DNA of 20,796 nucleotides from a virus: positions 1 through 20,796 of the IMG/VR virus record IMGVR_UViG_3300042691_053970; one strand, written 5' to 3'. Positions within the stretch are counted from its first letter, which is position 1. Every line of letters begins with the position of its first letter. The notes below the pieces were generated by a model. It made no database searches. It was given only the letters and a program-made list of their open reading frames with translations, and had not been told where the DNA came from. A program made the translations under genes and the position numbers. Below, piece after piece: positions 1-20,698 of the stretch.

Positions 1-118
1 AAAGTGCGTCCTCTCCGTCGCTGCCGAGGAAAGATAGCTTTGGAACCCACTGGTTCAGGCCTTCCATCGACTGCTTTTTATAGAACCTGTGTGACTGAGT
101 ATCGAGGAATAGGTCTCC
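1..118 (-). repeat. Tandem fibre repeat unit 4 (cut by window edge)
   Basis: Begins with GDLFLDT at nt 98-118 (residue 436), then QSHRFYKKQ and QWVPK. After the tryptophan segment it departs from the consensus (LSFLGSDGED instead of NQFRGT), so it may be the last unit before a new domain. Confidence 0.75.
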
Positions 119-1423
119 AACTTTTGCATCAACGAGGCTGATGATAAGGTCAGTGTCCTCTATCGCCGCTGTGGCGATTATGGTGTCAGGGTCACCGATG
201 CCTTCAAGAGTGACCGTACCTCTGAACTGATTTCTTGGGATCCACTGATCCGAACCGTAGGAAGACTGCTTCTTGTAGAATCTATGGCTGTCTGTATCAA
301 GGTAGAGATCGCCAATCTTGGCAGCGACGAGCTGATTGACAAGGGTCTCGCTCGCCTCAGTTCCGCCGATCAGGATTGAGTCTGGGTCGCCGATTCCCTC
401 AATTACTGCTGTTCCACGAAACTGATTCCTTGGAACCCACTGATTGCCTCCGAGCAGCTCCTGTCGTTTGTAGAACTTATGATTCTCAGTGTCAAGATAG
501 AGATCTCCGACCTTAGCAGCATTTAAGGAGCTAATGAGATCTTGATTCTCAGACAGGTTCTGCAATATGATATCGTCGGGGTCACCTGAGCCTTCAAGTG
601 TGATTGTTCCCCTAAACTGGTCACGTGGGACCCACGGAGTCGATCCTGTCTGACTCTGCTTCTTGTAGAACCTGTGATCATCAGTGTCAAGGTAGAGATC
701 GCCAATCTTGGCAGCGATCAAGTCCTCAATGAGATCAGCGTCTTCTGGTGCATCGGCTGATATGATCTCATTTGGATTTCCGCTTCCTTCAATTGCCTTT
801 GTGCCGCGGAATGATTTGCCTCGAATCTCCCATCTCTTTAAGTTTCCAACTGCGCTTTCTCTGATAAGCTTCCAGATGTAAAAAGAGTCCGTGTCTAGAT
901 ATGTCTCACCGATGATTGCGATGACCACATCGTTTTCGGGTAAGTTTGGATCTCCGGTTCCCTCATAGGTGCTGAGCCCTCTATCACCAGCATCGCCTTT
1001 TTCACCTGCTGAGCCCGGTGATCCATCGATGCCCTTGAATATGATGCCGCTTGACCAAGAGCCACCTGATTTTCTGTGAATCTTGAAGTTCTGAGTGTCG
1101 ATGTAGGTCTCATCATCTGATCCCACTTCAGAAGCAGGAGGACCCTCACCCGTAATAACATTTTTTCCACTTTGACCCGAGAGCAGAGCTTTTTTATTCC
1201 AGCCCGTTGTCTCTTTAGTGTAGACTTCTTTAGTGAGATTATCAAAGTAAGTGTCGCCAATAGCTCCGTCAGCGTCAGATGGAACCCCGTCTCCTGTGAG
1301 AAATGCGGGAGGAATTTCTGCCTGGGAAGCTGATGGATTCCCAACGACTATTGTCCTTCCTAACTTATCACGAACGGTGTACGAACCGCCGGCCTGCTGC
1401 AGGGAGAACTTGTTGACTCTCAC
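1..1423 (-). CDS. Tail fibre/adhesin with collagen-like segment and 65-aa tandem repeats (3' end outside window)
   Basis: The frame stays open for 474 codons from a GTG start at 1423 to the window edge, so the C-terminus is missing. The GTG is chosen because a GTAGGAG ribosome-binding site lies 7 nt upstream. The protein is modular: GD-x-Y-x-D-T-like modules begin near residues 56, 104, 172, 241, 306, 371 and 436. The last four are spaced exactly 65 residues apart and share GDLYLDT, an H-x-FYKKQ segment, QW(V/I)P and FRGT elements. Residues 131-151 form seven Gly-X-Y triplets (collagen-like). Short collagen-like stretches beside GD-x-Y-x-D modules are familiar in phage fibres and bacterial adhesins, so a trimeric, surface-exposed receptor-binding or spacer fibre is inferred. 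It is the last gene visible of the tail cluster, 34 nt after the LamG gene. The exact family and receptor are not recognisable. Confidence 0.85.
   Translation of the reverse strand, partial: MRVNKFSLQQAGGSYTVRDKLGRTIVVGNPSASQAEIPPAFLTGDGVPSDADGAIGDTYFDNLTKEVYTKETTGWNKKALLSGQSGKNVITGEGPPASEVGSDDETYIDTQNFKIHRKSGGSWSSGIIFKGIDGSPGSAGEKGDAGDRGLSTYEGTGDPNLPENDVVIAIIGETYLDTDSFYIWKLIRESAVGNLKRWEIRGKSFRGTKAIEGSGNPNEIISADAPEDADLIEDLIAAKIGDLYLDTDDHRFYKKQSQTGSTPWVPRDQFRGTITLEGSGDPDDIILQNLSENQDLISSLNAAKVGDLYLDTENHKFYKRQELLGGNQWVPRNQFRGTAVIEGIGDPDSILIGGTEASETLVNQLVAAKIGDLYLDTDSHRFYKKQSSYGSDQWIPRNQFRGTVTLEGIGDPDTIIATAAIEDTDLIISLVDAKVGDLFLDTQSHRFYKKQSMEGLNQWVPKLSFLGSDGEDAL
119..313 (-). repeat. Tandem fibre repeat unit 3 (195 nt / 65 aa)
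   Basis: Begins with GDLYLDT at nt 293-313 (residue 371), then DSHRFYKKQ, QWIPRNQFRGT and EGIGDPDTI. It is closest to unit 2, sharing RNQFRGT and EGIGDPD. Confidence 0.85.
314..508 (-). repeat. Tandem fibre repeat unit 2 (195 nt / 65 aa)
   Basis: Begins with GDLYLDT at nt 488-508 (residue 306), then ENHKFYKRQ, QWVPRNQFRGT and EGIGDPDSI. Protein conservation exceeds nucleotide conservation, so the copies have diverged under selection on the protein. Confidence 0.85.
509..703 (-). repeat. Tandem fibre repeat unit 1 (195 nt / 65 aa)
   Basis: First of the regularly spaced coding repeats, counted from its GDLYLDT motif (nt 683-703, residue 241). It contains DDHRFYKKQ, a PWVPRDQFRGT segment and EGSGDPDDI. 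The next unit begins exactly 195 nt downstream in the gene. Confidence 0.85.
971..1033 (-). other. Collagen-like Gly-X-Y segment in the fibre protein
   Basis: Residues 131-151 read as seven consecutive Gly-X-Y triplets (GID GSP GSA GEK GDA GDR GLS). They lie between two diverged GD-x-Y-x-D-T modules. Such segments in phage fibres are thought to form triple-helical shafts. This one is short, so it may be a trimerisation hinge rather than a long stalk. Confidence 0.7.
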
Positions 1424-1430
1424 TTTTTTG

Positions 1431-1437
1431 CTCCTAC
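1431..1437 (-). promoter_or_regulatory. Ribosome-binding site deciding the GTG start of the fibre gene
   Basis: GTAGGAG is followed by a 7-nt A-rich spacer and GTG at 1423. No in-frame ATG lies nearby, so the strong Shine-Dalgarno match fixes the GTG as the start. Confidence 0.75.
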
Positions 1438-1457
1438 ACCTTAGGTATTGATGCTGC

Positions 1458-4400
1458 TTAGATTTCTACAAGCGACTCATCAGGATCATCGGACCTAAAT
1501 GTCGTTTTACCCATCTCATCAAAAAATGGGATTGAGCTTGTAGAAAACATGCTAATATTTTGAGAGTGTGTTAGTTCAGGCGCAACGACAGTTGATCCAC
1601 TAAGGAATACGCACTTTACGGGAGGCTCAAGTGATTGCTTATCAAAAAATGCCGTGTCACGTCTTTGTTCTAACATGTCGCGTAGGAATCCGTAGTGATT
1701 AGATCGCCACCTGACTGATGTGTACTCAGGTTCTATGTTTGAGATGCCATACCTGTAAGTGCCCTTTCTAATTCCTGCACTTGATGTGGTCGTCATCTCA
1801 CCTATCCTATGTTTTATTACTGCAGTTCCCGGAAATCCAAAAACTAATGTAGTAGGAAGTGTCCAGCGTGTCGTGAAAATAAGCTCTTTTAGCTTTGGAA
1901 GTGAATATTGTGAGAGGAGTGACGGCTTTTTGCTGGTATCATCAATCGCAATTGGTAGTCTTGCGGTTCCATTAAAGTATGTTGCAGCACCGCTAAGATC
2001 ACGACGACGGGCAGTGGCTCCATAAAGCCTAATGGGACTTTCAGCATATGGAAACTGCTTGAAAAACTGTCCGCCTACCTCTGACAATCTGTTGATAAGA
2101 TTTGACGGTGAGTCAGGATTAGCAACAACTAATTCATGGCCAAGTGTGTTCAGCTGCGATGTAACACGGAAGCTTGTTGTTCCTGAAAGAAAAATTGAAT
2201 AGCTTGGTAGGCAACTATCATAAACACGCTCCTTTTCATCAGCAATATTGACAAACCTCTGAAGTGATCCAGTGGTTCCTGCCTGCCCAAGTGAGACACG
2301 ACTAATTACTTTTCTGAGATCTGAGCTTGACGGAACTGTTAGCGTCTTGCCACCATCAGAAACAGTGACAAGGCTTCCTGTCACTATCTGATCAAGATAA
2401 GAGCCAAAATAGGACTCAGTGAAGTCAAGTTCAAACTGATCTAACACGCTGTCGTCACCGATAACATAGTGAAGAGCAGGAGACGAAATTCTTGTTGGGT
2501 TTATGTTATTGACAGGCTGAAAGTTCTTAAGAACCGAGCCATACATTGTGACTCTTGTATTACCTGCTTTTATTGTCATTGATGAGCTGGGAAGCATAGA
2601 CAATGAACCGCTTCTATCTACAGTGGAGTAATCGTTCGGATTAGAAAGCAGTCTGCTATACCCAGCCTCAATACCAAAAATTAAGTCATCTCCCGGCATT
2701 AGCAGATATGGAGAATTATTTGACAGTGGCGTGTTAAAACCACTTTCTGAATTTTGTCCTTCATACCAGCTGCTGTAGAGACTTACGAACTCTGTCGCAG
2801 TCAAACCGGATGAAAATATGTTCTGACCACCGAGAGTCTTAAGCGCCCTAGCATCAAAATTGACAGAATTAAAAAGAACTTGATTCCTTCTGGAAGATTC
2901 AGCAGATCCAGTGCCTAAATGCCATTTATCAATACCAACTAAAAAGCTTGAGTCTGAGTCAGAGAGCTGCCTTGCAGACGCTCCTCCTGGCCAAGGATGC
3001 CCAACCGGATCTGAAACATCAAATCCTGAAGATTTGTAAACAGGTAAAGCATTTACGTTGAAAGTTCTAATTGGTGCAGTGCCGGGCTGGCACTCTAACT
3101 GAATACTTCCTGTGTAGCTATTTTGAATCGCATTTGGAATAGTCACAGTTGAAGTGTCAAATTCATGCAAGAATGCAGGCGAGAATGAATTTTGAGGAGC
3201 ATCATCTCGCAGTGTGAATGTCGTAAGAGGACTGGCAAATGTCATGGCACCTGACATTATGATGCTTCTGTTTGAGAGGCTTCGTGCCACAGTCTCTGGC
3301 ACATTGGTCTGCCTGTACATAAAGAAGATATAGTTATCGTGCACGTGATAGTACTGGTATCCCAATGATCCAGTTGACGCTGGTATTTTTTGTCTAACGT
3401 CAACGTTGTCAAATTCAACTGCTACTTTTTCAAGTAAAAAAGGAGTTTTAATATAATCGTTTAATTTAAGCCTGTTGGATGAAGTAGCAAAGTACTTTGG
3501 GTGATCTGGAGCAGATGCGTAATTTGAGGGTGTGCACGAGAAAGCCGGTGCAAGACCAATTGCTGTTGCTCCGATAGCACCGACAAAAGTATTAAGAAGA
3601 GATTCAGTGTCAGTTGGAACATCAGTTATATTAATAACATCGCCAGATGAAGTCTTTTCAAAACGAGTGTAGCCATATGTTGCTCCACCGTTGAACTGTG
3701 ACATTATTCCTTCAAGAGAAAACACGCCTGGTGATGATTCGGTAATGTCAAGTCTAAATGGAAGCGGTGAATTATCTACCGGGTTGTAAAGACCAATATC
3801 ATCCCACATTCCTGTGTTGAAGTTATAGTAATTGAATCCTGTTTTGCTTGCTGTTCCAAGTCCTGGCACGACTGCGCCAGTGTCAGAGAATAAATTCCTA
3901 GTTATGATTGAGTCATCAGAAGATGAAAGATTGATTTCAATTTTAACTTTTGACCACAGCGGCTCTGTGAAACCAGGCAGGGTGGATGTCTCAGTGCCAG
4001 TGGAATAAAAATCATTTTCAGGATCAATCGCGATGCTATCATCGAAAGGAACGATCAGTCCTGGATTAATCCGAGTCATGTGCGCTGGCTGCTGATGGCT
4101 TCTTAAGGCAAGGCTTACATTGACATTCGATTCGGCGCCAATCATGTTGGTGGCTGCTGGAACAAGAGAGTCGCTGTAGCTCGAAAATGCCGGGAGCATC
4201 GCCGGGAATACGACAGACTGTGTTATAAAATTGATCGTTAAGCTATCATTGAATTGGTCACTTTCGCTTCTGATACCAAGATTCTCAAACTTTAATCTTT
4301 CTGAAAGGGAGACGCTTGACCTTGATCTTCTGACTAAAATGTCACCAGCTGATGGATTCTTATTCAGCTCAGAGTCAAGCTGCTGTATCAGAACCCTAGG

Positions 4401-5300
4401 CGGAGGAGAGATAAATCCGCTCCTTGGATCACCTACTCCGAACCTTACGGCGGCATATACGGCTGATGCTTCAAGACTGGAAAGAGCTCGTCCATTCCAT
4501 ATTGCAACCTCATAGAGGTACCCCCTGAAATCAGCTGCAGACGCTGCCTGACTAAATGCTCCTGTGGCCCAAGCTGCACCGAAAGTTGTAGGAACCAACG
4601 CCCCTTGCAGTCCATCAAATGATGGACCAATGATCGTAGAGGTTGAAGCCCTCGGCATGCCATTAACTGTGAATGTGCATGATCTTGTAGAAGCTGTGTA
4701 AGATATACAAACGTGATGCCATGAATTTGGCGGTACACCGGTAGTCGTTCTTACGACATTTCTATCGCCGTCTGAGTCATACATGTCCATGTAGAGCCTG
4801 CCAAGATTATCTTGATAGACTAAAAACTCAGCCAGAGATGAAAGAAAAGGCGCATATTTGGCGATAATAACTTGATTTGACGTGAGGACTGTGGGACGAA
4901 ACCAGAACGATATAGTAAAATCGTTCTCCCTGCCGAGCTCATCAAAGAATATATGGTCTCTGACATACTCAGGGGCACCTGTAGAATTAACAGTCGTTAT
5001 GTACTCAACATTCGCATCAGTCGTCGCATTAAACGTGAAATCGAATGATTTACGATCTACCCTCAGCTCTTGACGTCCTGGATTTAACAGGCTCGCTGGA
5101 ACTGACAGTTGGCTTGGCAGACCGGCTCTTCTCATAACGTTTCCACGACCAGTCAGATCTGGAACGAAATCACCGTCAAAATCACGATACCAGGAGACAA
5201 GCCCACGTGACACATCGAACACGTTCTGTGAACCAATCGTGATGTTTAGACGAAATGCCCGTGTGAGATCAACTGGAATTGGACTTCTAAGTTTTGGCAT
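1458..5300 (-). CDS. Large LamG-domain tail/virion structural protein (1280 aa)
   Basis: A very large virion protein. Residues ~30-290 form a LamG/concanavalin-like domain, with core motifs DFTISFWFRP (128-136), NSWHHVCISYT (192-202), FTVNG (210-214) and FRGYLYEVAIWNGRALSSLE (258-277). This fold typically binds glycans or other ligands. The long remainder is Ser/Thr-rich, predicted mostly beta, with no motif that I can name. Near the C-terminus (~1175-1215) is a YGISNIEPEYTS...YGFLRDMLEQRRDT block, a type I recall from large virion proteins of other big phages. No signal peptide or membrane segment is seen. The ATG at 5300 lies 1 nt beyond the stop of the upstream gene, with AGAGA as a modest ribosome-binding site. 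The position between baseplate genes and the repeat fibre suggests a tail-periphery or adsorption-apparatus role, which is inference. Confidence 0.8.
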   Translation of the reverse strand: MPKLRSPIPVDLTRAFRLNITIGSQNVFDVSRGLVSWYRDFDGDFVPDLTGRGNVMRRAGLPSQLSVPASLLNPGRQELRVDRKSFDFTFNATTDANVEYITTVNSTGAPEYVRDHIFFDELGRENDFTISFWFRPTVLTSNQVIIAKYAPFLSSLAEFLVYQDNLGRLYMDMYDSDGDRNVVRTTTGVPPNSWHHVCISYTASTRSCTFTVNGMPRASTSTIIGPSFDGLQGALVPTTFGAAWATGAFSQAASAADFRGYLYEVAIWNGRALSSLEASAVYAAVRFGVGDPRSGFISPPPRVLIQQLDSELNKNPSAGDILVRRSRSSVSLSERLKFENLGIRSESDQFNDSLTINFITQSVVFPAMLPAFSSYSDSLVPAATNMIGAESNVNVSLALRSHQQPAHMTRINPGLIVPFDDSIAIDPENDFYSTGTETSTLPGFTEPLWSKVKIEINLSSSDDSIITRNLFSDTGAVVPGLGTASKTGFNYYNFNTGMWDDIGLYNPVDNSPLPFRLDITESSPGVFSLEGIMSQFNGGATYGYTRFEKTSSGDVINITDVPTDTESLLNTFVGAIGATAIGLAPAFSCTPSNYASAPDHPKYFATSSNRLKLNDYIKTPFLLEKVAVEFDNVDVRQKIPASTGSLGYQYYHVHDNYIFFMYRQTNVPETVARSLSNRSIIMSGAMTFASPLTTFTLRDDAPQNSFSPAFLHEFDTSTVTIPNAIQNSYTGSIQLECQPGTAPIRTFNVNALPVYKSSGFDVSDPVGHPWPGGASARQLSDSDSSFLVGIDKWHLGTGSAESSRRNQVLFNSVNFDARALKTLGGQNIFSSGLTATEFVSLYSSWYEGQNSESGFNTPLSNNSPYLLMPGDDLIFGIEAGYSRLLSNPNDYSTVDRSGSLSMLPSSSMTIKAGNTRVTMYGSVLKNFQPVNNINPTRISSPALHYVIGDDSVLDQFELDFTESYFGSYLDQIVTGSLVTVSDGGKTLTVPSSSDLRKVISRVSLGQAGTTGSLQRFVNIADEKERVYDSCLPSYSIFLSGTTSFRVTSQLNTLGHELVVANPDSPSNLINRLSEVGGQFFKQFPYAESPIRLYGATARRRDLSGAATYFNGTARLPIAIDDTSKKPSLLSQYSLPKLKELIFTTRWTLPTTLVFGFPGTAVIKHRIGEMTTTSSAGIRKGTYRYGISNIEPEYTSVRWRSNHYGFLRDMLEQRRDTAFFDKQSLEPPVKCVFLSGSTVVAPELTHSQNISMFSTSSIPFFDEMGKTTFRSDDPDESLVEI

Positions 5301-6155: not shown

Positions 6156-9100
6156 TTATATTCCTACCGTTGCTTCAACGACCGTGACTTCAGTATTTTT
6201 AAGCCTGTTCTCAACGTAGATTTCGCTCTGAAGATATGAGAACTTAGAGCGCTCGAGCGAGTGTGGCTCAATGACGTAGTTTGATCCTAGAAATATTGTA
6301 TTGCTAGGAATAAAGCGCTCGATCAAAGCCCCCATCGACTTATCGAACCATTTGAAGAACTCGAAAAGGAGCTTAAGATTGATCTTATCGGTGAGTCGAT
6401 TGAAGTATACGTCTCTAATAGCCTCTAACTTTGGATAGTCAGGGCTAAACTGCAGTTCGATTGCGCCGACCGCGTCGTCAAGCTCATCGAGCGTCGCGAA
6501 TATCTTTGCAATATCCTCATCAAGAACGCGAGTCGGCGAGACCTCCATAGAGAAACGAAGGTCGTCGATTGGCTCTTCTGATTTTCTAACAGAGAAAACA
6601 GGGCCCACCTCGGCGTCAATTTCAGGATGGAGGCTTGGGTCACTTAATCCCCTAATCCTGAACTTATTGTCCTCAACGGCTTCGTCAAATTTCATTGACA
6701 TGACTGAAGTTTTCATTCTCTCGCTGTTAATTACCTGCGCTGATGAGTCGAATCCAGATCCAGTCATGTGATACTGGTTCTGCGAGTAATCAAACAGCTG
6801 AATTCCACCAGTCGATGCAGATGATGTCGTTGGTTGCGATAGCCAGCAATCAACTCGAAGTCGTTCCCATGAACCTGACAACTCATTTACGAAGTTGTAG
6901 TTTAAACTTGGCGTCTCAACTCCAACTGATTCTATGTTTTGGGCGTGTTCAAGCAGTTCATCCTGTGAAAGTTGTTTGGACCAGAATCTTATCCTTCCTA
7001 CTTTTCCTGAGAACATTGTTGTTTTTGCAAGACTATCTGTTGATCCATTTATGTAATATGGGATGGTATCTAATGATTGTAATCCTATGCAGATAAATGA
7101 ACCGCTAGAATTGAGTGATGAATCAATTTTAGAGAAATATGATCCATTATCAAAGTAGTAAGATGTCTGATATGCACTTTTTACAGTATTAGAATCGTCA
7201 CTTGCGGCCCAAATAAAGTAGGATGAACTGGCCTCGTTAAGTGAACCGCTTCTTCCAAATGAAATGTGCCATGCATTTCCATCGAATATATTGATGCCGT
7301 CAATGCCAAGATTTAATAGATTAGAGCCCGTGAGACTGGATGAGACAAACAAGCTTAGAGATGACTCGCCATTACCAGCAATGGCGACAAGGTTTGCCAG
7401 CACACCGTGAGATGTAGAGAATGAAGACCCAGTCACATTAATTCTAGCGAGACTCTGCAAGATTGGATGATCATAGCTTGGATCAAACTTATAAATCGCC
7501 TCATATGACCAAGAGCCGCTGGTGAACAAACCATCATTCGCTGTGTTACTAACAATAGGATCACCGGGCTCAGTCCTCGACCCGCTTAGAAATGTTCCTG
7601 ACACAAATGGAAAGTTTGTCGGAATACCGATTGAGTTGAACGAAGCTGGAGTTTTATTTAATGAGCCGCTGAAATTTAAGAAACCTTGAACGATTGACCT
7701 AGGTACACGGCCGCCGCTGAGGTATGATGTTCTCTGGCCCCCATATTCTTTAAAACGAATATTTGAGTCTGGCTCAATTCCTGCAAGCCTGATTAGACTT
7801 TTAACGGCTCCAATTGTGCCCTTAGCGCGTGTTAGCGTCGGAATCTCATGAAGAATTCGTCTCCAGATAGTGTTCTGAATCTCGCTAAATGATAACAGCT
7901 GCTGTTTTGAGTCTCGAAGTGAATCTTGGTTTTGTTGATTTCCCTTGATGCCAATGTCTCTAAAAAAGTTGGGAAGGCTGATGCCGTACTTTTGCGCGAG
8001 GAACGGAAGCAGCTGGGATGAAACTGTGTCAATCTCATTATATCCTAGCTGGTTGAGGCTGGAATAGTGATCAATGAACATCTTCACTTCATCAAACTGC
8101 TTTGCCCAAGTGTAAAGAATCGCTGATATGATCTGGACAGATCCAATCTTGGTGTCACCTGGCCTTGTTCCCTGTGCATCTATCGGCTGACCGACGTCGC
8201 CTTCAATCGAGTCAAGACTGTAAAAATCTTGCTCTTGAAGCAGATAGTGCTGTGGAATAAGCTTGGTGATTAGGTTTGGATTATTTCTGTCAAACTCAAG
8301 GGCTGATTCTAAGAACTGCTCATTAAGACTTACAATATCAGGATGGTCAGAGAATAAAACTGGTGAGTACTCAATGATCTCATTGGTTATAGGAGAGTCT
8401 ACATGCTTAACTCGCTGTGACTGATTAAATGCCGTCACTTGTGAGTGAAGGCCGTTACCTGAATGGTCAAGGACAAGTGAGTTGTTTGTGTAACTACCAG
8501 TAGGCTCATTAAACTTAAAATAGAGCTTTAAGTCAGGATCAGGAAAAGTTGTATTGTTTATGCTAGAGCTTATCTCGTACTGTGTTCTTACCCTGTGATA
8601 GATCTTTATGTCATCTATCGATCCTAAGAATTGATTTGTAGGAACAAATGTGTAGTCAGTTGTAATGTGATTTGAGCCATTTGCAATTTTTAGCTGATCG
8701 CTTGAGAAATTGAGTCTTCCTAAATTCGGCTGCGACACGCTCGCCGTAAGCTGCCCATCGATATAAAGATGAACATTTTTATCATCTGGCTCTCTTGAGA
8801 ACACGACTGCGACAGGAACGAACCTTCCCTTCTCGATTGGCGATGAGATAGCGGTACTGTAGTTTGTTCCTGAAGATATTATGAACTTAACATCGCAATT
8901 TGTGGTACTTGCAGAAGCGACTGTAGCTAATGTGAATCCATTAACGTTTGATGTGTTAAGCTTTTGAGTGATAATGCAGTCGCTGGTTGCAATTTGCGGC
9001 ACAAATACCTGCATCTCGATAGTCATAGAATTTAGACCTGGATCAAGAACAGAATCACCAGATTTATTCCTAGAGATCTCAGGAATCGTAAAGCCAGCGC

Positions 9101-9512
9101 GATCGTTAACTTCAATGTAGTTGCTTTGATCGAAGTTCAAGTATCCTGTGTACTTTGGAAAAGAATCAAAAATGTATTTCTCAAAGCCTGTTAGACTGTC
9201 AAGAAATTTCTCAATCTCAAGATCATTTCCGTCAAAAGGAAATCCGTTGATTATGCTCTCAAAGGCGACATTTGTCTTTGCCTGTGCTGAATTGAAAAAA
9301 GTGTGATTCTCAAACTGTGACCAATCTATTGGTATTTGCTGGGTTGATTTTAGACCTGTGCCCAGCGGATCATAACGGAAAGAATCCTGACCTGAGATAT
9401 TAGTTCCGGTCACCTCATTGGCGGTCACATCTTTTATTACTACGCTCTCACCGCGAAGCTCTTTTAGAAGCTCAGAGCCCATTAAGTTTCCAGCGTAGAT
9501 TGAATTTTTCAT
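6156..9512 (-). CDS. Large virion protein with two LamG-like domains around a helical core (1118 aa; gp7-like position)
   Basis: Domains in order: an N-terminal linker (1-115); a first LamG-like domain (~120-350, with NSMTIEMQVFVP, VHLYIDG and FLGSIDDIKIYHR); a helical block (~395-592) containing WRRILHEIPTLTRAKGT...IRLAGI...FKEYGG; a second LamG-like domain (~600-865, with GSWSYEAIYKFD and GKVGRIRFWSKQLS); and a helical C-terminus (~1000-1118) with FFKWFDKSMGALIERFIPSN. The KGT...EYGG block and the WFD...IERFIP block recur in tail proteins of large phages, from memory. It sits two genes after the gp6-like wedge gene, where T4 has gp7/gp8, so a peripheral wedge role is plausible. That equivalence is positional inference. 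ATG at 9512 follows the upstream stop by 2 nt. Confidence 0.8.
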   Translation of the reverse strand: MKNSIYAGNLMGSELLKELRGESVVIKDVTANEVTGTNISGQDSFRYDPLGTGLKSTQQIPIDWSQFENHTFFNSAQAKTNVAFESIINGFPFDGNDLEIEKFLDSLTGFEKYIFDSFPKYTGYLNFDQSNYIEVNDRAGFTIPEISRNKSGDSVLDPGLNSMTIEMQVFVPQIATSDCIITQKLNTSNVNGFTLATVASASTTNCDVKFIISSGTNYSTAISSPIEKGRFVPVAVVFSREPDDKNVHLYIDGQLTASVSQPNLGRLNFSSDQLKIANGSNHITTDYTFVPTNQFLGSIDDIKIYHRVRTQYEISSSINNTTFPDPDLKLYFKFNEPTGSYTNNSLVLDHSGNGLHSQVTAFNQSQRVKHVDSPITNEIIEYSPVLFSDHPDIVSLNEQFLESALEFDRNNPNLITKLIPQHYLLQEQDFYSLDSIEGDVGQPIDAQGTRPGDTKIGSVQIISAILYTWAKQFDEVKMFIDHYSSLNQLGYNEIDTVSSQLLPFLAQKYGISLPNFFRDIGIKGNQQNQDSLRDSKQQLLSFSEIQNTIWRRILHEIPTLTRAKGTIGAVKSLIRLAGIEPDSNIRFKEYGGQRTSYLSGGRVPRSIVQGFLNFSGSLNKTPASFNSIGIPTNFPFVSGTFLSGSRTEPGDPIVSNTANDGLFTSGSWSYEAIYKFDPSYDHPILQSLARINVTGSSFSTSHGVLANLVAIAGNGESSLSLFVSSSLTGSNLLNLGIDGINIFDGNAWHISFGRSGSLNEASSSYFIWAASDDSNTVKSAYQTSYYFDNGSYFSKIDSSLNSSGSFICIGLQSLDTIPYYINGSTDSLAKTTMFSGKVGRIRFWSKQLSQDELLEHAQNIESVGVETPSLNYNFVNELSGSWERLRVDCWLSQPTTSSASTGGIQLFDYSQNQYHMTGSGFDSSAQVINSERMKTSVMSMKFDEAVEDNKFRIRGLSDPSLHPEIDAEVGPVFSVRKSEEPIDDLRFSMEVSPTRVLDEDIAKIFATLDELDDAVGAIELQFSPDYPKLEAIRDVYFNRLTDKINLKLLFEFFKWFDKSMGALIERFIPSNTIFLGSNYVIEPHSLERSKFSYLQSEIYVENRLKNTEVTVVEATVGI

Positions 9513-9514
9513 GA

Positions 9515-11023
9515 TTATTTCACTCTAAATTTAGATCCTGCATCACGCAGAATGTATTTGATGCCCTTGTCAACGACGAGATACTCAAGCATAAGCGTCT
9601 TTCCTATTGGAAGCCCATCAAAGATAACATCGAAGTATGCGCCAGAAGAATCCTGTGAAACACGAGTGCCATTTTGATATTCCTCAAATGGAATATACAC
9701 ATATGAATTTTCTGCATCGATGACCCTAAAGTAAAGAGCCTCAGGCGACTCGCTGTCAAGACTTCTGACCATCCTGGCGGCTGAAGGCTCAAAATTTGGA
9801 TCATAGATAAAAAGCCTAAACCTGTAATTGCTATTATTCTGAAACTCTTGCTGTGAATTGACAGCTTTCACAATGAGCTGTCTTGGCTGACCTATGCCGG
9901 AGTTTCTATTGGGTAAAGAGCATGTTAATTGGCTGCTATAAAATGTGACTGAGCCATCATTAGATTTCCATCTCTCATCAAAGATGATGCTTCCTGATGC
10001 TGCAACGGCGTCTTTAAGTGTAAGAGTACCAGTGATGACTTGAGCACTAAAAGCATTGATTGCAAACGATGACGAATACACCCCGGCTAGGAATGAATTT
10101 CCAATCTTTGCCTGTGAGACTGACTGTGTGATGGCAAAGCTTCCGGTCGAAAGAACTATTTTCATGCAATCGTTTCCGACCACGGGACTTGAGGCTGAGA
10201 CTATGTTGACATTAGACGATGCAATGTCATTAGTCAGGAATAGTGATCCAGTCGTATCAAAATAAAATGAATTATGGGAGTCAATAATAGAATCTTTAAA
10301 ATGCGACTCAAGCCTTGGACGAAGCGCATGATTGATAACATGTCTTGATGCAAATCTCTTGACAAATCGAGTAATGTCATCGGTCTCTTGACTGCCGCTG
10401 AATGAAATGATAAATCCATTGTTTTGAAGTATTCCACCCAGCGTTGCAGAAACAATGTCTGTCACCTCAACGAAAAGATCCTCATTTCCATCAGAAAATT
10501 GCTGCTTTGACTCAAGTGACCTGATTCCTAATCCATCTTGCAGGTTTCCTGAAGTATAAAAATCAATCGCTGAGTCACCCACTCCGCCTGTAGCATATGC
10601 TCCAGAAATATTCCAGCCCGTTCCTGCTGATGAGCTTAAAAAGTTACATGTGTCAATGTCAGAGAAAGCTGACACATCGCGACCGTCACCTTCATCAAAA
10701 GGAACAGCAAGTGGAAACACAGAAACTGTGAAATCGCGTGGAGATGGAAGTCCACTTTCAATCGACTGAAGTCTAATATAAGACCTAAAAGTTGGATCAT
10801 TAATATTAAGAGTTCCAATTGATGAAAGTCTTGATATATCAAATTTTACTAGAATTCTTGAGATCTCGATATTATTTGCGGTTGTTCCCGAGACTGTCTC
10901 ATCGTAAAGTTTGAAGAGATCAAGAGTTCCTGCACGACCGACATTGGCATCTGTAGCCCTAACGCCATCTATGATTTTATTGGTTATGTAAGTGTCGGCG
11001 GATGCCGTTGCGATGATGTACAT
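9515..11023 (-). CDS. Baseplate/tail protein with DNRLRE-like N-terminus (502 aa)
   Basis: The N-terminus (IATASADTYITNK, residues 4-16) and the following ISRILVKFDISRL segment (~54-66) resemble the DNRLRE-type beta-sandwich found in secreted carbohydrate-associated proteins and some phage virion proteins. The rest is beta-rich, with a C-terminal segment IGKTLMLEYLVVDKGIKY (near 475-492). No enzymatic motif is evident, so a structural rather than hydrolytic role is inferred. Its ATG at 11023 overlaps the last base of the gp6-like stop codon (TAATG), indicating translational coupling. It occupies the slot after gp6, where T4 places wedge proteins gp7 and gp8, but I see no sequence match to either. 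Confidence 0.75.
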   Translation of the reverse strand: MYIIATASADTYITNKIIDGVRATDANVGRAGTLDLFKLYDETVSGTTANNIEISRILVKFDISRLSSIGTLNINDPTFRSYIRLQSIESGLPSPRDFTVSVFPLAVPFDEGDGRDVSAFSDIDTCNFLSSSAGTGWNISGAYATGGVGDSAIDFYTSGNLQDGLGIRSLESKQQFSDGNEDLFVEVTDIVSATLGGILQNNGFIISFSGSQETDDITRFVKRFASRHVINHALRPRLESHFKDSIIDSHNSFYFDTTGSLFLTNDIASSNVNIVSASSPVVGNDCMKIVLSTGSFAITQSVSQAKIGNSFLAGVYSSSFAINAFSAQVITGTLTLKDAVAASGSIIFDERWKSNDGSVTFYSSQLTCSLPNRNSGIGQPRQLIVKAVNSQQEFQNNSNYRFRLFIYDPNFEPSAARMVRSLDSESPEALYFRVIDAENSYVYIPFEEYQNGTRVSQDSSGAYFDVIFDGLPIGKTLMLEYLVVDKGIKYILRDAGSKFRVK

Positions 11024-12864
11024 TAGAGTGCCGTCCCCACTACGTCGAAATCAGGATACCTCAACTCAAAGATGCCGCCCGGAGGTGGTGTGATAATCCC
11101 TCTAAACGTATTTCGACTGATATTAAATGTGTCTGTAGAATACTGTCTTCCCTGATAATTTGGTTCAATATTCTCAATCTTAAGTCCTGAATCGACAAGT
11201 GAAAGCACTCCAGGAGTGTTTATGATGATATTCTGAATGTCAGATATCATGATCGGCTGATCAATCTGAAAGTTTTTTACGCTCATCTCGCGGCTGATGT
11301 TAGCAATGACAGCCTGCACTGTTGCTGGCTTGCTCGCATTTGGATTCACATAAACTGCAAATCGAATCCTGAAGTTAATGACTCTTGAGTCGAGTATATC
11401 GAATGCGTCCCCAATCAGTCTGAAGCTATTCAGATATGACCTAAGATTAATTTTCAAAGTGTCAGGTGACGTCGTTAAAAATCCATTTGAGTCTTTTGAC
11501 GTGATAAAAAGCTGTGCTGCAAGAGGATTATTTGGATTAGGTCTAACACCTGCCCTAAAGACTCGACCGAATTGAGTTGGAAGAGTATAAATTCTGGAGA
11601 TAAGATCTTCTTTTGTCACAATTCTTGACTGCAGGCTGCGGGCTGCTGGAATTTGAGAACGAAGGTCCTCGATAGTTGGAGCTGAATCGCCGCCAGTAGC
11701 TGGATTCTCGTTTGAGATGTCAAATGATCTTCTAACATTAGCAGCGTCTACAGCGCTGACATCATTTGGAAATCTAATTTTCAACTGCTGGTAGGCGGCG
11801 ATTGATTTTGCTGACACGTTGTGACTGAGACCGCCGCCGTACCTGTAAGTGACACTTATGATTGTGTTTCTGGGTGTAATACCTAGAGTTTTGGTCTGAA
11901 GCAATGCAGATGGGTCTATTGAAAATGTGCTGAATGTGCTTGTTCCGTAAAGTGGAAGAGCCAGCGTCTCAGGGTCTGGAATGGCATCGTCATCGGTCGT
12001 AAGAGCATTTCCGCCGCCGAATTGAATCGATGTGGCCCTTGACGTGACATCACTAATGGTCACATATCTTCTTGGAGCGGGCTTGATTGTGAGAATGCTC
12101 TTTACCTCAGATGCATCGGGACCGAAATTTTGCGCTTGTGCAAACACAGTGTCCTGACTCAGGGCCTCAACCTCATAGTAGTCATTTCCATCACCGTCGA
12201 ACACCCGTAAGATTTGACTGACATTTGGATTTGAGAGCGTCAGTTTAAAGAATGGCTGCGGGTTGTCAGAAATTGTGAAAGTTTCAGTGATCTCATTTCC
12301 TGATACGCAGACTGTGTCGAGACGAAGAATAAATGTTAAAATCGTCGAGCCGCTGACAGTTCCTATTGTCTTTTGTGCGATCAGATTACCACTAAGATCG
12401 CGTTTGGAAAAATCAACCTCTTCTGTAAGGTTAAACGTTATTCCAGCTGTTGAAGCCAGGACAGTTCCGAGCTCAATGACAGGAAGTGCTGACTCTCTTG
12501 GAACATACTCACCGTTGACTAGATCTGCCGGAACTTCGATATAAATGGAAACTGTGGCAGAAGCTGCTGCGGCTCCTCGTGGTTTTATTCCTGCCTCTAG
12601 AATCATTCGATTGAGGTTCTTGGTCTCGACTGCAGTCGACCATGACATCTCTTTGAACTGGTGATCCATGTAGAAAGACATATTGTCAGAAACCGATGCT
12701 GCCATATCAAGGAGTAAGCCTCCAAGCCCAGCCTCAGAAAAGTCCTGAATCTTGTCACCAAAGTAAGTCTGGGCATAGCGAAGAAGATCTCCCCTAAAAG
12801 AGTCGAAGTCTTTGGCGAGATATGTCCTGTTTCTTGCATTCTTAAGCTGTTGATCGCTAGCCAT
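11023..12864 (-). CDS. Baseplate wedge protein, gp6 / baseplate-J-like (613 aa)
   Basis: The N-terminus (YLAKDFDSFRGDLLRYAQTY, residues ~15-34), followed by SEAGLGGLLLDMAASVSDNMSFYMD (~43-67), is characteristic of gp6/BaseplateJ wedge proteins. The C-terminal part (QAVIANISREMSVKNFQIDQ, then MISDIQNIIINTPGV) matches the helical and strand region seen at BaseplateJ C-termini. Length agrees with T4 gp6 (660 aa). These proteins dimerise into the iris-like ring that joins baseplate wedges and responds during sheath contraction. ATG at 12864 follows the gp25-like stop by 3 nt. It is flanked by the gp25-like gene, its usual partner in the wedge core. Confidence 0.9.
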   Translation of the reverse strand: MASDQQLKNARNRTYLAKDFDSFRGDLLRYAQTYFGDKIQDFSEAGLGGLLLDMAASVSDNMSFYMDHQFKEMSWSTAVETKNLNRMILEAGIKPRGAAAASATVSIYIEVPADLVNGEYVPRESALPVIELGTVLASTAGITFNLTEEVDFSKRDLSGNLIAQKTIGTVSGSTILTFILRLDTVCVSGNEITETFTISDNPQPFFKLTLSNPNVSQILRVFDGDGNDYYEVEALSQDTVFAQAQNFGPDASEVKSILTIKPAPRRYVTISDVTSRATSIQFGGGNALTTDDDAIPDPETLALPLYGTSTFSTFSIDPSALLQTKTLGITPRNTIISVTYRYGGGLSHNVSAKSIAAYQQLKIRFPNDVSAVDAANVRRSFDISNENPATGGDSAPTIEDLRSQIPAARSLQSRIVTKEDLISRIYTLPTQFGRVFRAGVRPNPNNPLAAQLFITSKDSNGFLTTSPDTLKINLRSYLNSFRLIGDAFDILDSRVINFRIRFAVYVNPNASKPATVQAVIANISREMSVKNFQIDQPIMISDIQNIIINTPGVLSLVDSGLKIENIEPNYQGRQYSTDTFNISRNTFRGIITPPPGGIFELRYPDFDVVGTAL

Positions 12865-16132: not shown

Positions 16133-16421
16133 TTACGTCGCCTTCATCCTGTGAATTTGTTAATGTGTTCGCGACGTAAAGAATCGCGTCTCTGGACTTT
16201 CTGATATCTTCAACGGCCCGTTTGATCTCTGGGGAGTCAAAGAAAAGAGGTATCTGAAGAATTTTTGACATTGACTCATACCGCTTGTCAAGGAGGTCAA
16301 GTGAGTCCTCAAGTGCATCTTCAATCTTAATTATGACTCTTCCAAACTTGTAATTATAGTAGCATGAAACCGCTAATACAATCGTTTCAAGTAACAGCAA
16401 TGATGTAAGAATTACATTCAT
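16104..16421 (-). CDS. Small membrane-anchored protein with acidic C-terminus (105 aa)
   Basis: The N-terminus (about residues 3-24: VILTSLLLLETIVLAVSCYYNY) is a single hydrophobic segment, either membrane anchor or uncleaved signal. It is followed by a helical charged region (IKIEDALEDSLDLLDKRYES), then RAVEDIRKSRDAILYVANTL and an acidic/Asn end (EGDVNAEGNEEGN). Small proteins of this build, N-terminal TM plus helical tail, are common beside late genes in T4-like marine phages and generally lack known function. ATG at 16421 shares one base with the glycosyltransferase TGA (TGATG). The last 29 nt overlap the sigma gene. A role at the inner membrane in lysis timing or assembly is possible but unsupported by a motif. 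Confidence 0.75.
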   Translation of the reverse strand: MNVILTSLLLLETIVLAVSCYYNYKFGRVIIKIEDALEDSLDLLDKRYESMSKILQIPLFFDSPEIKRAVEDIRKSRDAILYVANTLTNSQDEGDVNAEGNEEGN

Positions 16422-17581
16422 CAAAATAAGTGCCCAAGTGTTTTCTCATAAATCATTGTGACGCTTTCAGGTGAGTACTGTTCCCGAATTGTCTTTCCAA
16501 GCTCAGCTGCCCATTGCCTTGGAATATCACTTGATGATTTAAATTTTCTGACTTTCTTCTTAAAGTCTTCCTCAGAGACTTCGGCCCACTTTGTGCCCTT
16601 AATCCAGATATTACCATCGACACGAGTCTCGTGAATCTCAGTCATCTGATAATCCAGCTTAAGATACTTTCCCTTTCCAAGGAAATCAGTGTGACCTGAG
16701 AATCCAGTCGCAATAACAGGCAGATCACATGCGGCCGCCTCTAGGAGTGGAAGGCCATAGCCCTCACCACGTGTTGCGGATACAATCGCCTTAATTCCTG
16801 GATTTCTATAAAGTGAAACGAGCTCATCCTCTTCCACCATCCCATTTAAGAGGTGAATGCGAGGATATGGACCCTTTCTGACCTCTGATATCACTTTTTT
16901 GAATATATCTGTCACCTGAGGCCAATCAAACTTGGTACCTCTTCCTGCATTTGCCTTTATTACAATTCCAACATCTGGATCATTGGCGAACTCCTCACAT
17001 AGCCACTTGACTGTGAAGAATATGTTCTTTCTATCATTATATGGGTTATTTCCAGTGATAGTTCCAACTATTAAAAAGTTGAACGCAGTCTCAAGGTTGA
17101 TTCCAATGTCACGACAATTTTCGCTAAGGATCTGTCCCATAAAACTTTCAGGAATAACATGAATTGGAACATTCACCTTTCCTGTATTCTCAATTGTTTG
17201 CTTAACGAAACTTGATGGCACCACTATCTCAGACATTTTATTGCAGCAATCAATCCAAAGAGGATTGCACTTATCTGACTCAACCAGTGCTGTGATACCA
17301 ATATTCTTATGCGCAAGATTTGGATCCCACTCATTTGGAAGCTGAATCTGGAACGATACATCAAACTTTCCAGTTATATTCCCTGTCCTTCTCATGATCT
17401 CACCAATCATGCCATTATCAAGTTCAGGATTCACTTTCCAGGATGTGCTTCCCCAGGGAAGTACTTGAACTTGAATTTCACAGTCTGGATGCGTTTTAAG
17501 CACCCAATCAAAGACCTGGCGGGCATGATTTCCATAACCTGAGTTACTCAGGAGTGGTCCCCTGACAAGGATCTTTTTCAT
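16421..17581 (-). CDS. GT-B glycosyltransferase, GT4-like (386 aa)
   Basis: Two Rossmann-like halves are suggested: an N-terminal ILVRGPLLSNSGYGNHAR (4-21), with the Gly-rich acceptor loop typical of GT-B enzymes, and a C-terminal SATRGEGYGLPLLEAAACDLP (268-288), carrying the donor-binding E-G-Y-G...E (E273, E281) signature of GT4 retaining transferases. It should transfer a sugar from a nucleotide donor; donor and acceptor cannot be read from sequence. The ATG at 17581 is chosen over one 18 nt further upstream: it forms an ATGA overlap with the preceding stop and has a GGTGA site 4 nt before it. The gene is tandem with another GT4-like enzyme but shares little sequence with it, so the two probably act in succession. 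Downstream it runs into the small membrane-protein gene. Confidence 0.88.
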   Translation of the reverse strand: MKKILVRGPLLSNSGYGNHARQVFDWVLKTHPDCEIQVQVLPWGSTSWKVNPELDNGMIGEIMRRTGNITGKFDVSFQIQLPNEWDPNLAHKNIGITALVESDKCNPLWIDCCNKMSEIVVPSSFVKQTIENTGKVNVPIHVIPESFMGQILSENCRDIGINLETAFNFLIVGTITGNNPYNDRKNIFFTVKWLCEEFANDPDVGIVIKANAGRGTKFDWPQVTDIFKKVISEVRKGPYPRIHLLNGMVEEDELVSLYRNPGIKAIVSATRGEGYGLPLLEAAACDLPVIATGFSGHTDFLGKGKYLKLDYQMTEIHETRVDGNIWIKGTKWAEVSEEDFKKKVRKFKSSSDIPRQWAAELGKTIREQYSPESVTMIYEKTLGHLF

Positions 17582-18819
17582 AAGGTCACCATCTCCCATG
17601 ACTTCCTTCTGCTCTTCCAGTTTTGAATTGTCTCATTAAGCGTATCATGCCACATATCAATTGTCTTGTCATAGTTGAACTCTGACTCAACATAATTTTT
17701 GGCCTTCTCACCAAGGGACTTTCTATCTTCAGGTGACATGTCATACATTTTAAAGATTGCATCAGCAATATTCTCATTCTTGACATAATCTTCATAGATG
17801 AATGGAACAACCTGCGATCCAACGCATGACCTAAAGTCTATATCAAGCGCAATTCCATTCTCAGACCCGTCACGATGATCGACCACTTGACGAGTAAGAC
17901 CACCTGTCTTTGCGGCAATCACAGGCTTTCCACACTGCATTGCCTCAAGTGTTGCAAGGCCAAAACCCTCAGCGTATGATACGTTGATGCAACTGTCAGA
18001 TATGTTATAGAGAACATTCATCTTATCAAAGTCAATTCTATCTGTGGAGAATATCACACTATCCTGAACTCCGAAGCACTTACTAACCTCGTGAAGGTTT
18101 GGTCCCTCATCATCCAAAGGATTGGTGTGCATTAGAAGAGTTGCATTGCTCTTTCCCATAGCCTTGATCTTTTTCATAAACATGGACCAAGACTCAATGA
18201 CATCAGATGAGCGCTTTCTGCGCGCATTTCGATTGACCCAAAATAGTACAAAGTCATCTTTCCTGTTTGATCCCAGGATTTCAACTTTCTTTGCCTGCCT
18301 GACAGATTCTGGCAGAGGATAAAACACATGCTGTGGAATTGCATGTGGAACAAAGTTTACCTTATTTGGAAAATCTTCCTTGCAGATCTCATAGGTTAAG
18401 TAAGAGTGACAGTTAATCAGGTCAGTTGAGTCATAAAACTGTCGATTAAAGACTGGCTTTGGCCAGTTGTCCCAAACATGCCACCAAGCAATAGGACAAA
18501 CCTGGTGGATCTCATCCTCCATCTCAAAAAGCCAGAAGAAAAATCTTGGATCAGTAAAGATTAGAATTAAATCTGGCTTTTCAGTGGCAAGGGTGACACG
18601 AAGCATGTCTTTAGTGCCAAATCCATCAACAGGCTTAATGATAAAGTCTTCATTAACTGCAATGGTCCTATAATCGGAGTGCTTAATCGCAGCTCCAAAC
18701 TGTCTGAATGTCCACTCGCCCTTTTTAAGGAGACCCTCTATGAGGTGGCGCGTCTGTGTACCAACACCTGATGTTGATAAAGCATGATCAGATAGGACAA
18801 GTACTTTCTTTTTCTGCAT
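17578..18819 (-). CDS. GT-B glycosyltransferase, GT4-like (413 aa)
   Basis: N-terminal VLVLSDHALSTSGVGTQTRH (6-25) is the Gly-rich GT-B acceptor-side loop. C-terminal SYAEGFGLATLEAMQCGKPV (281-300) holds the E284/E292 donor-site pair, followed by AAKTGGLTRQVVD. FWVNRNARRKR (193-203) lies where GT4 enzymes contact the donor phosphates. Together these support an active retaining glycosyltransferase using an NDP-sugar; specificity is unknown. The aromatic-rich FFFWLFEM and AWWHVWDNWP segments (~93-120) are unusual and may line an acceptor pocket. It ends in a 4-nt ATGA overlap with the second GT4-like gene. A 73-nt gap with a weak promoter-like sequence lies upstream. GDP-sugar genes two and three genes upstream are candidates to supply the donor. 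Confidence 0.88.
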   Translation of the reverse strand: MQKKKVLVLSDHALSTSGVGTQTRHLIEGLLKKGEWTFRQFGAAIKHSDYRTIAVNEDFIIKPVDGFGTKDMLRVTLATEKPDLILIFTDPRFFFWLFEMEDEIHQVCPIAWWHVWDNWPKPVFNRQFYDSTDLINCHSYLTYEICKEDFPNKVNFVPHAIPQHVFYPLPESVRQAKKVEILGSNRKDDFVLFWVNRNARRKRSSDVIESWSMFMKKIKAMGKSNATLLMHTNPLDDEGPNLHEVSKCFGVQDSVIFSTDRIDFDKMNVLYNISDSCINVSYAEGFGLATLEAMQCGKPVIAAKTGGLTRQVVDHRDGSENGIALDIDFRSCVGSQVVPFIYEDYVKNENIADAIFKMYDMSPEDRKSLGEKAKNYVESEFNYDKTIDMWHDTLNETIQNWKSRRKSWEMVTL

Positions 18820-18892: not shown

Positions 18893-19687
18893 CTAAGTGC
18901 AGTGTTCTGTGTCGCGATATGGGCAATAAAGACAAGACTGGCGATTCTTGATTCTGACTCCCTTTCTCATACCTGCAATTGTGTTAGACACAAGCTTGTT
19001 GGCTTTCTGCATTGCAACTGGTCCAACTGAGACCGTGAAGAGCTCAACACGCTTTCCAGCCTTTGCGCCCTTTTTAAGAAGCACATAGCCACACTTAACA
19101 TAACGTGCGCCATCAAAGAGCACCTTGTGCTTACTTGTCAAGTAAGACTTATAAAGAGCTACCTGTGCTAAAGTGAGGGGATTCTGTTTCTTCTCTGCAT
19201 TCCAGCCACCAGCTCCTGCAGTCTTCCAGTCAAGAATCCAGAGATCATAACCACCTTTTTCACGTGGAACTTTAATAATGCAGTCCACAAATCCCTTGAA
19301 GTAAGCGTCACGATCTTCAATTGACTCATACAGGGCTTCCTCGGCAGAGACAGTTGTCCATCCTGGGAAGTTTTGATCAAGCCAATCCGGAACTTCATCA
19401 AGCGCATCTTTTGCCCATGTGGCCCACTTCTCAACATCAGGAAATCCCTTAGAATCCCATGCAGAGACAATGTCCATTAGACACTGCTCGATATTCATGG
19501 TTCTCGTCTTTAGATACCCCTCGCAAGCTGCGTGAACCGCAGTTCCAAAGTCAAGATGCTCGCTTGGTTTGTCGAGATTGATCTTCTTAATCTGTTGCAG
19601 GTAATGACGATGGGGGCACTCATTCCATGTTCGGACTTCGGAGTACGACACATGCGCCTTTCCAGTTGGAAGAAGATTATTGGACAA
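18893..19687 (-). CDS. RecB/Cas4-type PD-(D/E)XK nuclease with probable 4Fe-4S cluster (264 aa)
   Basis: The conserved PDDEXK_1 core is visible: H52 and E56 in FGTAVHAACEGYL, D135 in KGFVDCII, D153-x-K155 in WILDWKTA, and Q175...Y179 in LAQVALYKSYL. Four cysteines (C24 in WNECPHRHYL, then C252, C255 and C263 near the C-terminus) match the split Cys arrangement that holds an Fe-S cluster in Cas4, AddB and related nucleases. All catalytic positions look intact. Such proteins are DNA exonucleases used in end processing or recombination, and phage copies are common. The start is TTG at 19687, since an AAGGGG site lies 5 nt upstream and no in-frame ATG exists before the upstream stop. No cas genes or repeats are near, so a CRISPR adaptation role is not suggested. 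It sits oddly between sugar genes. Confidence 0.88.
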   Translation of the reverse strand: MSNNLLPTGKAHVSYSEVRTWNECPHRHYLQQIKKINLDKPSEHLDFGTAVHAACEGYLKTRTMNIEQCLMDIVSAWDSKGFPDVEKWATWAKDALDEVPDWLDQNFPGWTTVSAEEALYESIEDRDAYFKGFVDCIIKVPREKGGYDLWILDWKTAGAGGWNAEKKQNPLTLAQVALYKSYLTSKHKVLFDGARYVKCGYVLLKKGAKAGKRVELFTVSVGPVAMQKANKLVSNTIAGMRKGVRIKNRQSCLYCPYRDTEHCT

Positions 19688-19723: not shown

Positions 19724-20698
19724 CTATCTTTTTAAGCCTGAGATGCTTGAAAGATCTGCCTCATACATAAGTCTAGCAAGATCCGCAAATGTAGTCTTGG
19801 GAACCCAGCCGAGCTTTTGCCTTGCTTTCGAATAGTCGCCTTCCAACCATGGGACCTCATGAGGGCGTTTCAGTCTTTCATCAATGATAAGATGCTTGTC
19901 AACATTGAGACCTGCAATATCAAAGACCTCATACAGGAATTCACGGACAGTGTGGGTTTCACCCGTAGCAATCACGTAATCATCGGGCCGATCCTGCTGG
20001 AGCATAAGCCACATCGCCTCGACGTAGTCCTTCGCATACCCCCAATCGCGGAGGGCATCGAGATTACCAAGAGCTATCTTATCTTGAAGTCCAAGCTTGA
20101 TTCTAGCCGCAGCTATTGTGATCTTACGGGTAACGAATGTCTCGCCGCGGCGAGGGCTCTCATGGTTAAAGAGGATACCTGATGAGGCATGGATACCATA
20201 ACCCTCACGGTAATTACGAGTGAGACCGTGGGCAAAGACCTTGGCGCATGCATAAGGAGAGGCCGGCATGAGCCTGGTTGTCTCACTCTGAGGATGCTCT
20301 GGATTGTCACCATACATCTCAGACGATGACGCCTGGTAAAATCGACAGTCAGGCTGCATTGTCCTAATGCACTCAAGTAGACGAAGAGGACCCATTGCAA
20401 CAGCATCTACAGTCTCTTCCGGAACATCGAAAGACACTCTAACATGAGATTGCGCTGCTAGGTTGTAGACCTCATCAAAATGATTGTCCTTGAACAGGCG
20501 ATAAAAAGCACCTGCATCATTCATTGAACCATAGACAAGCTGAAAGTTTGGATGCGATAGAAGTCCATCTATTCTGTCTGTGGCTAGAAGAGATGTCCTT
20601 CGTTTCATTCCCACTACCTTGTATCCCTTCTCAAGCAGAAGTTCAGCAAGGTATGAACCGTCTTGTCCTGTAATTCCCGTAACTAAAGCAGTTTTCAT
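19724..20698 (-). CDS. gmd: GDP-mannose 4,6-dehydratase (324 aa)
   Basis: Short-chain dehydrogenase/epimerase fold with all key elements: NAD(P)-binding GITGQDG (8-14), an RRTS segment (33-36), NLAAQSHV (79-86), the catalytic SSSEM (124-128), and Y149...K153 in [13 protein letters not shown] (183-184) and [20 protein letters not shown] (211-230) are typical of GDP-mannose dehydratases. It converts GDP-mannose to GDP-4-keto-6-deoxy-mannose, precursor of GDP-fucose, GDP-rhamnose, GDP-colitose or GDP-perosamine. Length is slightly short of E. coli Gmd (373 aa) but complete. The gene begins 2 nt after the stop of the partial upstream gene, which looks like a partner epimerase. The ribosome-binding site is weak, so expression may depend on coupling to that gene. 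Phage-borne gmd is well known, and the acceptor of the final sugar is not identified. Confidence 0.93.

Follow-up and report, generated by a model that had tools for sequence, protein, structure and literature searches.

Does the exact 65-residue periodicity of a repeat in a phage tail fiber mean that repeat spacing is itself under selection along the fiber? The question is raised by a gene at one end of IMG/VR record IMGVR_UViG_3300042691_053970, a viral contig of 20,796 bases that was analyzed in its entirety (the window). The gene occupies positions 2 to 1423 on the minus strand, starts with GTG, with GGAG located 7 nt upstream, and runs past the contig end; 474 residues are readable, and the 3' end of the gene and the C terminus of the protein lie beyond the contig. 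A preliminary description, made from the sequence of the window, proposed that the spacing of the units is selected, as in a stacked or trimeric shaft. The results presented here favor a narrower answer. The gene likely encodes a collagen-type modular tail fiber, and the phage has T4-like baseplate genes; in such a fiber, the register is probably kept by collagen-free blocks only.

Four units of equal length in a protein of mixed spacing

The motifs reported at positions 703, 508, 313, and 118 of the minus strand are exactly there (residues 241, 306, 371, and 436). They belong to four consecutive 65-residue units on the minus strand: unit 1 (residues 196 to 260, positions 644 to 838), unit 2 (residues 261 to 325, positions 449 to 643), unit 3 (residues 326 to 390, positions 254 to 448), and unit 4 (residues 391 to 455, positions 59 to 253). 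As described, all three intervals measure exactly 65 residues (195 nt), and no indel separates the units in any of the six pairs; this exact register rests on three intervals in a gene that the contig end truncates. GDLYLDT, the motif on which the description was built, recurs in three units and reads GDLFLDT in the fourth. The other motifs quoted vary between units: FYKRQ stands in unit 2, PWVPR follows unit 1, and F-R-G-T is broken after unit 4. In all four units, 28 residues separate GxGxP from GD and 23 separate GD from W, and no Gly-X-Y run of at least three triplets occurs between the units. Residue identity between units is 49 to 62%. In the ungapped register, 25 of the 65 columns are invariant across the four units, and a MAFFT alignment raises this number to 27 by moving the nine residues at the start of unit 1 by one position, so that the sole irregularity of the register is located before the first motif.

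The repeat stands far above the controls. Protein autocorrelation at a shift of 65 is 434, against a best value of -63 for shuffled sequences (300 shuffles, any shift from 20 to 299), and the nucleotide pattern for GDx[YF]xDT-x4-FYK has four matches in the window and none in 100 dinucleotide shuffles. Tandem Repeats Finder, run on the DNA at a score of 30, did not report the array.

Outside the array, the spacing is different. An N-terminal segment (residues 1 to 40, positions 1304 to 1423, minus strand), which aligns to the orthologs described below (tblastn alignments begin at focal residue 3 for L149 and 5 for L150) and would be the attachment end of the fiber, is followed on the same strand by three modules with cognate motifs at residues 56, 104, and 172. 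Modules 1 (GDGVP...GDTYFDN...W, residues 38 to 87, positions 1163 to 1312) and 2 (GEGPP...DETYIDT...W, residues 83 to 131, positions 1031 to 1177) have short linkers. A collagen-like run of seven Gly-X-Y triplets (residues 131 to 151, positions 971 to 1033) leads to module 3 (GTGDP...GETYLDT...W, residues 152 to 207, positions 803 to 970), with a linker of 17 residues. Along the visible protein, the motifs are thus spaced by 48, 68, 69, 65, 65, and 65 residues; the spacing is not constant, the 65-residue period is local because the three further cognate motifs are spaced differently, and a fixed period along the whole fiber is ruled out. The visible 65-residue array comprises four units within a protein of mixed spacing. 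Beyond unit 4, the end of the readable gene (residues 456 to 474, positions 2 to 58, minus strand; QWVPKLSFLGSDGEDAL) retains the W and F-x-G, lacks both the R and T that complete F-R-G-T and the next E-G, and continues with SDGEDAL up to the contig end; the unit pattern is lost there. The GSDGEDA at this point may be the start of another Gly-X-Y stretch.

Family and genomic neighborhood of the fiber gene

The assignment of the gene to a tail fiber, made in the preliminary description, is borne out by family matches and by gene position. The protein matches the tail fiber protein family phrog_3904 (E = 7.8e-7 over residues 112 to 278), as do its two orthologs (6e-27 for L149 and 5.5e-10 for L150), and it matches phrog_26654, a family of unknown function (3.6e-6). 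The gene lies in one run with, and behind, genes for gp25-like (5.9e-7) and gp6-like (2.5e-10) baseplate proteins. The 65-residue array taken alone gives an E value of 0.37 with phrog_3904; its best PHROG match is phrog_31320, of unknown function (7.7e-4 over 31 residues). Against Pfam and NCBIfam, nothing scored above the curated cutoffs for the focal protein, the best match being TOBE (0.0077). The phage tail repeat-like family PTR (PF12789) was not found in the focal protein at E = 0.1 or in its two parts at E = 5. Although a Gly-X-Y segment is present, Pfam Collagen stays under the cutoff in the focal fragment (0.34) and in the ortholog L150 (7.9e-4) and exceeds it in the ortholog L149 (1.3e-6). 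The fiber gene encodes an ordinary kind of protein, and its repeat is real and well observed.

Several other genes of the window lie on the same strand. Near the fiber gene, two large proteins (positions 1458 to 5300 and 6156 to 9512) contain Laminin_G_3, a ConA-like lectin domain (2.2e-18 and 1.6e-13, respectively). The gp6-like protein (positions 11023 to 12864) has full-length relatives in six phage records, including Microcystis phage Mel-JY01, Flavobacterium immuto phages, and a 484-kb uncultured phage; at just 29 to 32% identity, these relatives place the phage far from isolated ones. Upstream of the baseplate genes are two group 1 glycosyltransferases (positions 16421 to 17599 and 17578 to 18819) and a GDP-mannose 4,6-dehydratase (positions 19724 to 20698; Pfam, 3.1e-126), which are possible glycan modification genes, and a protein of the PD-(D/E)XK nuclease superfamily (positions 18893 to 19687; 3.2e-24).

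A duplicated GDxYxDT module

The cognate motifs of the protein belong to a module that is found in other viral proteins. A spaced-motif scan of viral contigs, with permitted spacings of 59 to 69 only, returned 11 stretches. In nine of these, both motifs of the pair share one open reading frame (L143 and L145, which are among the nine, represent a single protein). Of the remaining two, one has its pair out of frame, and the other (L148) has no array in the frame read. In the nine in-frame stretches, the modules are separated by Gly-X-Y sequence, and the matched pairs are 60 to 69 residues apart. A profile was built from 22 modules of the scan loci and of Sinorhizobium phage Phosso (23 were extracted, and one with an undefined residue was dropped).

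This collagen-flanked-module profile matches the focal protein with 89.7 bits over seven domains and none of the seven other window proteins included in the test. When the repeat region was shuffled 200 times, 14 of the shuffled versions were listed, with a best score of 4.3 bits, and the reversed protein was listed at -8.5 bits. The signal is uneven: modules 1 and 2 score 30.1 and 35.2 bits, the 65-residue units score 9 to 11 bits each, with the match mainly in the half from GDLYLDT to YK/W, and module 3 scores 2.4 bits, which is the level of the shuffles. The proposed common origin of the long units and the short module leans on module order and on the orthologs. In a module tree, module 2 clusters with modules 7 to 9 of one ortholog (L150; support, 96/99). 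The four focal units have no firm placement among the other modules, where long branches meet, and the tree is not a basis for any claim on the order of duplication.

Two complete orthologs and the lengths of their junctions

With the GDx[YF]xDT-x4-FYK nucleotide pattern, two viral stretches were recovered, L149 (IMGVR_UViG_3300033076_001401) and L150 (IMGVR_UViG_3300010885_057925), each of which contains a complete ORF with an ATG start and a TAA stop (928 and 1,095 residues, respectively). These ORFs match the focal protein (1.7e-42 and 2e-36), are alignable with it from the N terminus, and lie directly behind orthologs of g2, g3, and g4, the same gene position as that of the focal gene; the gp6 proteins of the two contigs are 63% (L149) and 61% (L150) identical to the focal one. 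Behind the fiber gene in both contigs is an ORF (L149, positions 3 to 518; L150, positions 776 to 1693; minus strand) with a near-identical start, MAGILDPKSRIMDVVLTQQGRRQIASG.

The orthologs contain the same kinds of module as the focal protein but differ from it in module order and number and in carrying collagen between many modules. Their long-linker units (L), in which 27 or 34 residues separate GxGxP from GD (28 in the focal units) and 19 separate GD from W (23 in the focal units), are mixed with a second type that has a linker of 21 residues (L2) and a third type without GxGxP. Copy number varies between the relatives, as the preliminary description suggested checking: L149 contains three L+L2 blocks, and L150 contains two.

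The lengths of the junctions between modules depend on their type. Where repeated junctions are collagen-free, that is, without a Gly-X-Y run of at least three triplets, they are exact across the three proteins taken together: 65 residues at the three focal unit-to-unit junctions, 57 in all five long-to-second-type junctions, and 66 in both second-to-third-type junctions. By contrast, collagen-bridged L2-to-L junctions measure 80, 86, and 83 residues and differ by triplets. Two observations are contrary to this rule. The first junction, which is collagen bridged, measures 70 residues in one ortholog and 71 in the other, a one-residue difference, and two collagen-bridged junctions of L150 both measure 54. 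The rule covers 10 junctions in three proteins, and those of L149 and L150 are not independent since the two share ancestry. With these restrictions, exact register is probably a property of the folded, collagen-free modules.

The unit duplications are old

The DNA of the units has diverged as far as was claimed: nucleotide identity between units is 54 to 59% overall and 35 to 45% at third codon positions. The NG86 estimate of dS is undefined in four of the six unit pairs and is 1.57 and 2.06 in the remaining two, with dN of 0.37 to 0.49. Synonymous sites between units are saturated or nearly so. At shared residues, the number of identical codons is at or below the expectation from codon usage in three pairs and somewhat above it in the other three (18 versus 12.3, 19 versus 12.5, and 18 versus 13.8). 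On this sequence evidence, the duplications are old and the protein is under purifying selection. The DNA is too diverged for the equal spacing to have come solely from recent tandem duplication, an explanation that is ruled out. The description of a length that is kept while the sequence drifts applies to these four units, which are of one module type and unchanged in length.

Is the spacing selected?

The claim that went further, that spacing itself is selected, is not supported for the fiber as a whole. Irregular spacing, which the preliminary description had named, for the full gene beyond the window, as refuting it, is present both in the visible gene (48, 68, and 69) and in the two complete orthologs (57 to 95 and 54 to 83). 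In its strong form, a stacked trimeric shaft with all repeats of equal length and the spacing selected along the whole fiber, the claim is contradicted by these values and is improbable; the long linker also differs in length across the proteins (27, 28, and 34). What favors selection is the four-unit run itself, where all six focal pairs are free of indels at a mean identity of 57% and with synonymous sites at or near saturation, whereas the 28 focal-to-ortholog unit pairs have a mean of 2.29 indel events at a mean identity of 41%. For a star of four units, a Poisson estimate, which rests on one alignment and few events, gives 2.5 to 2.9 expected events and a probability of none of 0.085 or 0.057. 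The exactness of the run is therefore suggestive at best as a sign of selection on length. Equal length could also have come purely from tandem duplication or recombinational homogenization with no constraint on length, a reading that fits the block duplications in the family, the three unit pairs with an excess of identical codons, and the 11 of 21 ortholog unit pairs that are likewise without an indel. Against it stands the divergence of the units: with DNA just 54 to 59% identical and dS undefined or above 1.5, recent copying or conversion is insufficient for the equal length. At probabilities of 0.057 to 0.085, chance may still account for it. We consider this account unlikely, if somewhat less so than selection along the whole fiber.

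That the protein is not a fiber at all, and instead serves as an adhesin or decoration protein of the surface that has collagen-like parts, is very improbable given the tail-fiber PHROG matches and the position of the gene in a baseplate and tail cluster. Its support comes from weak similarities to BclA. C-terminal slices of the orthologs match BclA_C at 0.0079 and 0.02, below the cutoff (0.35 for the whole of L149), and a segment of L149 that takes in collagen matches PDB entry 1wck (BclA) at 0.0052. These matches hint at a C1q/BclA-like head, a part that lies outside the visible focal gene.

A probable modular fiber with folded and collagen joints

The reading that best accommodates these results is the collagen-type modular fiber. 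The module, its duplication, the lengths of linkers and spacers, the orthologs with their variability, and the synteny are directly supported. In this reading, the building block, GxGxP, a linker, GDxYxDT, five residues, Y-K, and W, has been duplicated many times, with the blocks joined partly by Gly-X-Y (collagen) spacers and partly directly; the four 65-residue units are a collagen-free run of a long-linker form of the block. Three such chains presumably wind together, and the fiber is most likely a trimer that carries a receptor-binding tip. The collagen stretches would act as spacers that lengthen or shorten by whole triplets, and the noncollagen block as a compact fold, perhaps a short linker helix followed by a three-stranded beta meander, that tolerates changes in length poorly. 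We propose that the collagen-free run holds its register under drift, and the whole fiber does not, because folded blocks resist length change and collagen spacers slip. The 65-residue run might then be a stiff segment that keeps the tip, encoded past the contig end, off the baseplate, with a role in adsorption.

The structure models are compatible with such a fold at low confidence. Two AlphaFold2 monomer models, a unit model (four alignment rows) and a full-length model, have mean pLDDT values of 47 and 35, respectively. Within the units, each model assigns strands to GDLYLDT, HRFYKK, and the W region, and the linker helix is present in the unit model and in just two of the four units of the full-length model. 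Three linker residues (L36, L40, and A43) are the same in all four units and are compatible with a short heptad d-a-d pattern. A search of solved structures with the unit profile gave nothing credible (best value, 0.31). A further, tentative extension is a two-part ruler, in which triplet-variable collagen spacers are combined with fixed-length alpha/beta units (a heptad-like linker helix and a beta meander) and phages set the length and stiffness of the fiber by whole units. The 65-residue run could then be a rigid alpha/beta shaft segment, not yet characterized, inside a collagen-type fiber.

Searches for relatives

Protein searches returned no relative of the fiber protein among isolated phages (at 1e-5) or genome contigs, and no confirmed relative among viral contigs with the whole protein or the unit alignment as the query. 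The viral-contig result reflects limits of the method, since the nucleotide pattern found two orthologs in the same collection. At E values up to 10, the 65-residue array alone returned seven phage records (best E, 2). The focal protein had no match in 25 records, in a search of genomes that recovers both orthologs as a positive control; the L149 protein had none in 30 records, in a search without a positive control.

Neighboring genes were also used to locate related loci: 27 loci with gp6 relatives and 80 of 173 with g4 relatives were obtained, and g2 or g3 gave no confirmed relative in the related-locus search. In the genome search, g2 homologs were present in 9 of 25 records, and nine downstream regions were examined, eight of them behind a g2 homolog (homolog-bearing record G013 was left out). 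Among downstream ORFs of at least 100 residues, the motif regular expression had one isolated match, in L055. Another record with a g2 homolog, L054, has a single open frame over nearly all of a 4-kb region (positions 2 to 4000, minus strand) with a Gly-X-Y run of at least five triplets. Over 136 loci, the best match to the unit hidden Markov model (HMM) had an E value of 0.031 and fell in a gp6-like ORF, and the motif-array expression matched Phosso (L135) alone. Because many of these contigs stop short of the region or break off inside it, the absence of the array is weak evidence.

Comparison with known systems

The fiber gene overturns no accepted view of tail fibers, and two complete orthologs now complement its sequence, which is truncated at the contig end. 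It provides a small natural example of one block reused with and without collagen and leads to a prediction for phage fibers: folded joints should hold their length, and collagen joints should slip in threes. Fibers with collagen and other domains are known from polinton-like viruses, whose fiber proteins are reported to contain collagen and phage-tail-repeat domains (PMC12220804). The prophage collagen-like fibers EPclA and EPclB of E. coli O157:H7 have trimeric collagen and coiled-coil parts, and fibers of this type are reported to differ in length by multiples of three in the collagen and of seven in the coiled coil (PMC3368898). The domains PfN, Pf2, and PfC, which that study names, are absent from the Pfam listings for the focal protein, L149, and L150. 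A further comparison is with Sinorhizobium phage Phosso, in whose minor tail protein (XYS97521.1) tandem GDFYIDT..IYGPK..G.WG modules recur at 64 and 63 residues together with collagen. This protein matches the N-terminal half of the focal protein (5e-5) and the focal 65-residue array just at an E value of 4, and it differs from that array in its short linker and in the collagen that separates its modules.
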